From: Rhodobacter calidifons
Lineage (GTDB): Bacteria; Pseudomonadota; Alphaproteobacteria; Rhodobacterales; Rhodobacteraceae
Assembly (NCBI RefSeq): GCF_011174775.1
Contig: NZ_JAANHS010000004.1
Coordinates: 124,001-188,000 of the forward strand
DNA: 64,000 bases
Direction: 5' to 3'
Within the stretch, counting starts at the first letter, position 1; the number at the start of each line of letters is the position of its first letter. The notes beneath the pieces were generated by a model. That model worked only from the letters and a program-made list of their open reading frames with translations. It was not told the origin of the DNA and made no database searches. The position numbers were made by a program, and so were the translations under genes. Positions 3,707 through 9,001 of this stretch are shown here, one piece after another.

Positions 3707-4099
3707 CTAAAGTCCCGCTGCGGCACGCATGGCGTAAAGATCGGCGACCGCCTTGTCCGCGGAATCCTTGTCCGGATTGACCGCCGCCGCCTCGCAGGCG
3801 TCCGCCACCAGGGCGTCCAGCTGCGCGGGCGTCAGTTCGGTCAAGGGCACGGCCTGCTCGGCCAGGACCGAAACGCCACGGGCGCTGATCTCGGCAAAGC
3901 CGCCGGTGACGACATAGGCTTTCATCCCGTCCGCCGCCGCCACACGCAGGACGCCCGGCCGCAACGAGGTGATGGTGGGGGCATGCCCCTCCATCGCCGT
4001 CAGATCGCCGTCCGCGCCGGGGATCTGGACCTCGGTTGCAGGAAACGACGCAAGGCGCCGCTCGGGGCTGACGAGGTCGAATTGAACCGTGCTGGCCAT
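3707..4099 (-). CDS. atpC: ATP synthase F1 subunit epsilon
   Basis: 130-residue epsilon subunit of the central rotor stalk, which couples rotation to catalysis and inhibits ATP hydrolysis. N-terminal barrel typical of the family: [12 protein letters not shown], then [21 protein letters not shown] and [10 protein letters not shown]; the C-terminal helical part is shortened compared with E. coli, as usual in alphaproteobacteria. Last gene of the operon, 9 bases after atpD. Confidence 0.95.
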
Positions 4100-4108
4100 G
4101 TCGCCCCC

Positions 4109-5557
<1,449 letters not shown>

Positions 5558-5571
5558 CTACTCCGGGTTCG

Positions 5572-6438
5572 TCAGAGCGCCTCGGCGCCCGAAATGATTT
5601 CGATAAGCTCTTTGGTGATCGCGGCCTGACGGCTCCGGTTGTACTGGATCGTCAGCTTGTTGATCATCTCGCCTGCGTTGCGGGTGGCGTTGTCCATCGC
5701 GGACATCCGCGCGCCCTGTTCGCTGGCGCCGTTTTCCAGAAGGGCGGTGAAGATCTGCGTGGCAACCCCGCGCGGCAGAAGGTCGGCAAGGATCGCCTCC
5801 TCGCTGGGTTCGTAATCATACAGCGCAGTCGCGCCGGTGGCTTCGAACCTGGCCGGGATCACCTGCTGTTCGGTCGGGATCTGGCTGATGACCGACTGGA
5901 AGCGGTTGTAGAAGATCGTGACCACATCCGCCTCGCCCGCCTCGAAGGCCGCCATGACTTCGCGCGCGATGTTCTGCGCATTGGCATAGCCGATGCGCTT
6001 CACCTCGCTGAGATCCACATGGCCGACGAAGGCATGGCCCCAGTCGCGGCGCAGCTGCTCTCGGCCCTTCTTGCCGACGGTGAGGATCTTCACAGTCTTG
6101 CCCGCCGCAACCAGTTCGTTGGCGCGCGTGCGCGCCAGCTTGACGATCGACGAGTTGAAGCCGCCGCAAAGGCCGCGCTCGCTGGTCATGACCACCAGAA
6201 GATGCACCTGATCCCGGCCGTTCCCGGCCAGAAGCTTCGGCGCACCTTCCCCGGTGCCCACGCCCGCCGCCAGCGCAGTCATCACCGCCGTCATCCGCTC
6301 GGCAAAGGGCCGGGCAGCCTCGGCGGCCTCTTGCGCGCGGCGCAGTTTCGCCGCCGCGACCATCTGCATGGCCTTGGTGATCTTCCGCGTGCTCTTTACG
6401 CTTCCGATCCGGTTCTTGAGGTCCTTCAGGCTGGGCAT
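5572..6438 (-). CDS. atpG: ATP synthase F1 subunit gamma
   Basis: 288-residue rotor shaft subunit. Begins [24 protein letters not shown] and ends with the conserved coiled helix ([37 protein letters not shown]); [11 protein letters not shown] in the middle is typical. Only one base separates its start from the stop of the inserted PH-domain gene, so its translation may depend on that of the newcomer. Confidence 0.96.
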
Positions 6439-6439
6439 T

Positions 6440-6892
6440 TTAGTCCTTCCCCACGGCTTCTACAGCTTCTTGCACTGCTCGGCGGTAGGCCAACGGTGAC
6501 GAAATAAACCGCGCAGGTGAAGCTGAAAGTCCTGAACCGTTCACAGTCACCGTGCCGTAACCGAACAGGCGACCCAGAATGCTTTGTTGGACCGAGATCG
6601 AGTCGACCTTATCCAGTCGCTGCTCAATCGTTGTTCTGCTCACAAGTCCCCACTTTCCCACTACTTTCTTGTTCGTAACCGCCAGTTCTGTTGTCAGATA
6701 AGCGATCAAACCGCTCAAAGCAAAGAGCAGTAGCAAAACAAAAAAGAGGCCGTAAACCACAGGGGTGTCTCCAGGTCCAGCATATACAAGGATGGCTAGG
6801 GCCGCTGATGGCCAAACGAATGTCATCCAGTGCGCTTTGGCGTGGTGCCTTACCTTCTCACCTTGGGTTAGAGTTTTCTCGACGTAACTCAT
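6440..6892 (-). CDS. PH-domain (bPH2-type) membrane protein inside the atp operon
   Basis: 150 residues from [14 protein letters not shown]; an upstream in-frame start would overlap atpA. Two hydrophobic segments (about residues 24-36 and 44-66, the latter [20 protein letters not shown]) are followed by a bacterial PH-like domain with the usual [30 protein letters not shown] and a TVTVNGSG strand near the end. No catalytic residues expected. It sits 10 bases after the atpA stop and 1 base before atpG, in the same direction. By hand count 6481-6840 is about 52% G+C, whereas a sample of atpA is about 70%, so the gene looks acquired. Its role is unknown; a link to the ATP synthase is not implied by the fold. 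Confidence 0.85.
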
Positions 6893-6902
6893 TGTGAGAA
6901 GC

Positions 6903-8440
<1,538 letters not shown>

Positions 8441-8441
<1 letters not shown>

Positions 8442-9001
8442 CACCCAACCTCTTTCATTGCATTTTGCAGGGCCGCGAGCTTTGCCTTGACCGAAGTGTC
8501 GATCATGGTCGAGCCCAGCTTGACGACAAGACCGCCGATGAGGCTTTCATCGACAGTCGTTTTCAGCTTCACGGTCTTGCCGACGCGGGCCTTCAGCGTC
8601 TCGGCAAGTTTCTTGGTCTGGGCGGCCGTCAGCGCGCGGGCGGCGGTCACCTCGGCGGTCACTTCGCCCTTCTCCTTGGCGATCATGTCGGCAAGCTGGG
8701 TGACCAGCTGCGGCAGCACGAACAGGCGGCGCTTCTCGGCCATCAGGGCCAGGGTGTTCGACATCAGCGTGCTGAGACCCAGCCGGGCGGCAATCGCGGC
8801 GATCACCTTGCCCTGGTCCTCGCGGCTGACCACCGGAGAGGCGATCACGCCGCGCAGGTCGTCGCTTGCGGCCAGGGTCTCGGCCAGGGCGGTTGCGTCC
8901 GATTCCAGTTCCTTCAGCGCGCCGCCTTCCTTGGCCAGATCGAACAAGGCCGACGCATAGCGTGCGGCAATACCCAGAGAGATCGAAGCTGGTTCTGACA
9001 C
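8441..9001 (-). CDS. atpH: ATP synthase F1 subunit delta
   Basis: 186-residue stator subunit that joins F1 to the b subunits. I place the start at the GTG (9001) giving [20 protein letters not shown], the family N-terminus, with ggaaggg a few bases upstream; the frame stays open for 48 more codons but that part has no family resemblance. The C-terminal region [26 protein letters not shown] is strongly conserved. First gene of the operon. Confidence 0.93.

Follow-up and report, generated by a model that had tools for sequence, protein, structure and literature searches.

Membrane-anchored PH-domain proteins of the bPH_2/DUF304 type are exemplified in bacteria by YdbS, the architecture of which is given as two transmembrane (TM) helices and one PHb2 domain (PMC8657885); DUF304 is itself tied to bacterial PH domains in PMC2817789. 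Helpers of membrane bioenergetic complexes include EROS (CYBC1), described as a chaperone of NOX2 (PMC5379978; PMC13296129), and its plant relative Ycf4 (PMC5379978). PuhB, encoded in the photosynthesis gene cluster, is listed as a putative factor in assembly of the photosynthetic complex (PMC6052148). For ATP synthase, the cyanobacterial Atp1 and plant CGL160 proteins provide a precedent, in that the gene for a membrane protein lies in an atp operon-like arrangement and its product is reported to support accumulation of the enzyme (PMC4383579). In PMC11237479 the 'DUF304' of the five matching passages is DUF3046. We found no description of an atp-operon PH protein in the open-licence literature.

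In the window (the whole 64,000-nt stretch of DNA that was analysed), the ORF list and the sequence place a gene for a bPH_2-domain membrane protein (the PH gene) inside the F1 operon and co-directional with it (Table 1). We take the surrounding ORFs to be atpH, atpA, atpG, atpD and atpC, these names having been assigned from their translations. A preliminary description of this DNA had located the PH gene 10 bases after the atpA stop and one base before the atpG start, in the operon's own direction, and the ORF coordinates bear this out. The PH reading frame remains open for ~40 codons further upstream, into atpA (the ORF is listed from 7012); the start at 6892 is favoured, since an M-S-Y-V start is conserved in most of the relatives that occupy the same operon position (hereafter atp-linked, or linked, relatives).

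Table 1. Features of the F1 operon around the PH gene (window coordinates).
Feature	Position	Strand	Remarks
atpH (F1 delta)	8441..9001	minus	first gene of the F1 cluster; start provisional
atpA (F1 alpha)	6903..8444	minus	flank on the upstream side; 98% identity to relative G031 across 1481 nt
atpA-to-PH spacer	6893..6902	minus	10 nt between atpA stop and PH start; no clear Shine-Dalgarno (computed -1.9 kcal/mol)
PH gene	6440..6892	minus	150 aa, ATG start; N-terminal helices at residues 22-38 and 44-67, then bPH_2 domain; carries atp-linked signature KWG...
PH 3' end + 1 nt	6439..6452	minus	GGGGAAGGACTAA-A, then atpG ATG; SD-like GAAGGA for atpG within last PH codons
atpG (F1 gamma)	5572..6438	minus	downstream flank
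atpD (F1 beta)	4109..5551	minus	from the ORF list
atpC (F1 epsilon)	3707..4099	minus	from ORF translation and position

The encoded protein matches the Pfam family PF03703 (bPH_2) at 44.7 bits (cut-off 22), with nothing else in Pfam at E <= 1. A structural model built from 61 sequences (pLDDT 95.7; the first model, from 10 sequences, had a pLDDT of 68.9) comprises, besides a short helix and a strand, two long helices taken to lie in the membrane and a PH-type domain; the Pfam match and the two-helix model together sustain the earlier identification as a membrane PH-domain protein. With YdbS-type bPH_2/DUF304 proteins it shares the Pfam match above cut-off, the two TM helices and the single PHb2 domain. 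It departs from the YdbS/YdbT pair in that its neighbours are atpA and atpG, without an adjacent ydbT partner, and in that it sits in the F1 operon and has clade-specific residues (see below). The comparison with Atp1 and CGL160 extends to the presence of a membrane protein gene in an atp operon, but the lineage is another one and the window protein matches only bPH_2 in Pfam.

Searches with the model returned bacterial PH domains as the highest-ranking Foldseek matches (E about 2e-3), with no solved structure at E 0.001 or lower, and a sequence search of solved structures gave nothing significant (best E 0.58). EROS (8kei_D) was found at Foldseek rank 41, below soluble PH domains; the alignment covers the whole length but is weak (TM 0.52/0.49, rmsd 5.3, 17% identity, E 0.059), and EROS was also matched by the first model. 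It is absent among the 50 VIA-align matches listed, which for both models are mostly soluble PH, PTB and FERM domains. What the window protein may have in common with EROS and Ycf4 is a TM hairpin with a PH-like domain, whilst low identity, a poor Foldseek E value, a different client, and a Pfam assignment to no family other than bPH_2 set it apart. This likeness may reflect the general fold rather than the atp-linked clade in particular. The NCBIfam model of PuhB (NF040894) did not match the window protein; two of the linked relatives (L001 and L132) match it weakly, at 15.7 and 17.5 bits against a cut-off of 110.

The PH gene is a recent arrival in this species, in which it has replaced an ordinary short atpA–atpG spacer. 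The host genome (3.62 Mb, 99.99% complete) contains a single copy, the second match, at E 0.19, not being meaningful. A match at E <= 0.001 is present in this genome only among the 32 of the genus, some of which are incomplete, and in 1 of 23 when counting is restricted to genomes of 90% completeness or more and 5% contamination or less; atpG was detected in 28 of the 32, host included. In 26 other genus genomes (one of which, G008, contributes two loci) the atpA–atpG spacer measures 18–24 nt, compared with 464 nt in the window; the junction was unreadable in four genomes, where atpG was absent from the search results, and in G011, where the atpG start is missing. The nearest relative, G031, with an atpG protein 98% identical to that of the host, has a spacer of 21 nt, and its junction reads TGA-GCCCCCTGAAGGAGTAGGCAG-ATG where the window has TGA-GCTTCTCACA-[PH]-A-ATG. 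Across the family, any PH match is confined to 2 of 394 genomes, namely the host and G097, whose relative is 32% identical and does not lie at an atp locus. It is unlikely that the gene was inherited vertically and then lost from the remaining genomes seen in the genus and family. The view of the preliminary description that the gene was recently acquired is upheld by the lack of a match in the other genus genomes, by the 21-nt spacer of the nearest relative, and by a third-position composition (GC3) far from that of atpA and atpG.

The PH gene has a GC content of 51.9% and a GC3 of 53.6%, whilst GC3 in its neighbours is ~85% (atpA: GC 64.9%, GC3 87.9%). Median values over 48 mechanically picked window ORFs, likely false frames included, are 67.4% for GC and 85.0% for GC3; two of these ORFs have a GC3 below that of the PH gene, with a total GC of 72–75%, and are maybe false frames. 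The earlier hand estimate of ~52% G+C for positions 6481–6840 agrees with the computed 52.2%, but that of ~70% for atpA was too high. Low GC is weaker proof of transfer than had been held, because PH-family genes are GC-poorer than their own loci in 33 of 35 cases (mean -5.7 points; among L001–L052, three of them atp-linked), across high- and low-GC hosts; composition being weakened as sole proof, the direct comparison with the spacers of relatives described above was therefore used. An example of a lower-GC carrier is L003, with 45% in the PH gene and 56% in its locus.

Relatives of the PH protein occur on 70 plasmid records, 281 phage records and 2 viral contigs, all at less than 60% identity. 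Distant relatives are found on tiny Enterobacterales plasmids (about 2–6 kb among the matches listed) and, as trbW, on AM157767, a 70-kb plasmid of an uncultured bacterium; the 20 phage matches listed ('membrane-flanked domain') are from phages of about 155–168 kb. PHROGs files the PH family under moron/host takeover (phrog_3707), and in a library of viral structures the window model matched, at E 1e-4, a phage entry called 'Bacterial PH domain protein', and, at 6e-4, one unnamed entry. A phage or plasmid origin of the window gene was considered and rejected, as these relatives all fall below 60% identity and the one viral row used in the trees, L096, lies outside the linked clade.

The occurrence of relatives on phages and plasmids, the low GC and GC3, and the lack of a match in the 31 other genus genomes would each suit a random insertion of a foreign mobile gene, carried along as a neutral hitchhiker and due to be lost. 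We regard this as very improbable and rejected it because the closest relatives occupy the same atpA–atpG slot, in 17 other genomes; in addition, the window protein carries the signature of that group, its frame is intact, and both boundaries of the foreign stretch coincide with coding ends.

The 17 genomes are G804 (L001), G805 (L003), G806 (L006/L130 and L214), the 11 genomes of L132–L142, and G1189, G1222 and G1184 (L201–L203). For G806 the slot was read from two contigs, L006/L130 supplying the atpA side and L214 the atpG side; the L006 contig ends inside the PH gene. Among 62 loci from the genome collection (compared loci carry ~1.5 kb of flank per side), L001, L003 and L006, which are among the best matches, adjoin atpA, and L001 and L003 also precede atpG as judged by tblastn. 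All three are MAGs labelled Hyphomicrobiales or Alphaproteobacteria.

Searches at successive ranks delimit the distribution of this arrangement. In the order of L001 a PH match is present in 61 of 347 genomes, and 12 of the 30 loci examined are at atp; these are the best 12 of the 30 (L001's own place and 11 others at 46–55% identity to L001), the other 18 not being so placed. The search made for the genome of L003 drew on the same order, with many genomes shared, and gave matches in 40 of 199. In the G1014 family the gene is present in 11 of 12 genomes, every time at atp, whilst in the G804 family 15 of 119 genomes have a match and five (G804, G806, G1189, G1222 and G1184) have it at atp; of 14 new loci from the latter family, four (L201–L203 and L214) are at atp and ten are without an atp gene. 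The slot is absent in all 32 loci L095–L126 (1 from the family, 2 viral, 29 from the class). No further case was seen among the loci fetched from the class search (58 of 385 genomes matched), nor in any of 25 new loci from the phylum search (24 of 398 genomes matched). The clade is rare, with the gene at atp in 12 of the 347 genomes sampled from the G804 order (as judged from 30 loci) and in 5 of the 119 from the G804 family, and ATP synthase therefore works without the PH protein.

Where the arrangement is established it is compact and well kept. In the 11 G1014-family loci the GC content of the PH gene (0.60–0.66) is within 5 points of that of its surroundings (0.65–0.68); the atpA–PH spacer is 10 nt in nine of them, as in the window, and 7 and 12 nt in the others, whilst in 11 of 11 the PH stop codon shares one base with the atpG start (TGATG in ten, TAATG in one). 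The gap before atpG is 3 nt in L003 and 115 nt in L001, where a stretch with a repeated CCGATGTTGAGATTTG motif (L001:6496-6610) parts the two genes, unlike the tight G1014-family spacing. Values of dN/dS are 0.04–0.53 in six pairs, so the PH protein is under purifying selection there. The preliminary description had set an insertion against an old operon member: the insertion reading stands for the host's genus, with the gene in 1 of 32 genomes, but not elsewhere, given near-host GC and the same slot in 11 of 12 G1014-family genomes.

The proteins closest to that of the window are 50–57% identical to it, or 60% over a 111-residue fragment in G806. The 17 linked proteins placed in a tree of 78 rows, that of the window among them, are set apart from all others by a single branch with support of 97/62 (SH-aLRT only 62). 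This grouping was recovered in 99% of 200 bootstrap trees, and none of 500 shuffles of the labels gave a value as low. Long-branch, redundant, archaeal and some over-length rows, L095 among them, were left out of this tree. A quick tree of 113 rows, which excluded the 111-aa L097 and nine archaeal rows, placed the then-14 linked rows in a 16-row set together with L002 and the long-branch L095 (branch 4.63). Neither tree includes the partial L006 protein. In the 78-row tree the clade has as its nearest unlinked relative L002 (L002:6001-8466, plus strand), an 822-aa protein from a Rhodoblastus MAG that joins a PH membrane domain of the same kind to a WD40 beta-propeller at its C terminus.

Residues that distinguish the linked proteins were identified in an alignment (A2) of 61 proteins, nine of them atp-linked, compiled without archaeal, over-length, redundant or non-ATG rows. 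All nine linked rows have Q91 and R92, two residues absent from all 52 unlinked rows; D97 is found in eight linked rows and no unlinked one, and W81 in eight linked rows and one unlinked one. The window protein has all four. K76 is less discriminating (9 of 9 versus 8 of 52). A pattern formulated post hoc, T-[IVL]-E-Q-R-L-x-K-V-[DE]-[SA], matches 39 of 239 loci scanned, without exception in the atp slot (16 genomes are represented, some places more than once), and matches the window protein; the linked L201 and L203 deviate from it (KID for KVD).

These observations bear on whether the PH protein has anything to do with ATP synthase. It could instead be a YdbS-like membrane-protection or export protein that makes use of a strong constitutive operon, and recombination via the conserved atp flanks would account for the repeated slot. 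Proteins of this kind are described as needed for leaderless bacteriocin export (PMC8657885), and a single atp-operon origin followed by homologous transfer requires no functional link. The plasmid and phage relatives noted above fit such an independent existence, as does the neighbourhood of the family at large: among 26 relative loci no widely shared neighbour was found, the clusters present in at least 3 loci being the PH gene itself (22) and three others (3–4 each). The atp genes of L001, L003 and L006 escaped this clustering but were recovered by direct tblastn. What weighs against the lack of a link is that the residues peculiar to the clade (QR, W, D) go together with the slot, that 11 of the 12 G1014-family genomes retain the slot, all 11 with the one-base atpG overlap, and that the closest unlinked relative is a propeller fusion. 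On balance we consider an unrelated function unlikely, though it carries real weight.

The PH gene is most readily explained as a horizontally transferred copy of a gene that already belonged to an atp operon, and not as a chance stray, because elsewhere it is a clade-conserved member of this operon, with near-host GC and in the same slot. The shared slot, the single clade and the common QR residues make it probable that the window gene was transferred between equivalent operon slots. The flanks are of host type up to the coding ends, and the PH gene replaces the spacer rather than lying within it. In the simplest account, inferred from these boundaries alone, the donor would be an unsampled bacterium already carrying atpA–PH–atpG; recombination would have been confined to the spacer by exchange points in the conserved sequence where atpA ends and atpG begins, so that the 'insertion' would really be an allelic replacement of the spacer. 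An independent insertion of a PH gene at the same site is formally conceivable.

Replacement of the spacer also affects the region from which atpG translation is initiated. The SD-like GAAGGA inside the last PH codons replaces the usual atpG leader, and its predicted anti-SD pairing (-6.3 kcal/mol) is close to that in a relative without the PH gene (-6.6 kcal/mol), for which reason initiation of atpG seems to have been retained unaltered. PH and atpG are likely to be translationally coupled, since the atpG SD now lies in the last PH codons and the PH start is without a clear SD of its own. The suggestion of the preliminary description that the PH gene may tune gamma production is plausible.

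The position in the atp operon, together with the same slot in distant bacteria, suggests an undescribed helper of ATP synthase. The protein would be anchored by its two-helix hairpin with the PH domain in the cytoplasm, where F1 sits; made beside gamma through coupled translation, it would help F1 assembly or the docking of F1 at the membrane. The hairpin-plus-PH fold, the weak EROS match, the sub-cut-off PuhB match and the Atp1/CGL160 precedent are the reasons for which an accessory factor is favoured; the evidence for a link with F1Fo is genomic, and assembly is the favoured one of several possible roles. Taken as a whole, the proposition that the gene belongs to a rare bPH_2 clade at home between atpA and atpG, was acquired horizontally, and encodes a dedicated accessory factor most likely for F1 assembly or docking, seems to us evenly poised. 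The more specific proposition of a dedicated F1Fo accessory protein built on an EROS/Ycf4-like hairpin-plus-PH fold and moved between species from slot to slot is doubtful at present.

The same genomic evidence for an F1Fo link would equally suit a protein that regulates or inhibits ATP synthase, or senses membrane tension or lipids on F1Fo, rather than assembling it. The alphaproteobacterial zeta subunit is a regulator/inhibitor of ATP synthase, PH folds bind peptides or lipids, and the sporadic distribution of the clade suits an optional regulator. The one full-length solved match listed that has a membrane hairpin and a known role is, however, an assembly chaperone, albeit a weak match, and we judge a regulatory or sensory role distinctly unlikely. 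An accessory factor in F1 assembly or docking is the role that we continue to favour.

It is usual to regard the F1 operon of bacteria as complete with its five subunit genes. Family-wide retention of the slot, operon-specific residues and the apparent move into the same slot of a distant species point to an unrecognised partner of ATP synthase, and the near-identical operons with and without the PH gene form a natural pair for gauging its effect on F1Fo. If the kinship in fold with EROS and Ycf4 were true, the proteins that assist NADPH oxidase, photosystem I and ATP synthase would all be built on a single ancient chaperone fold.
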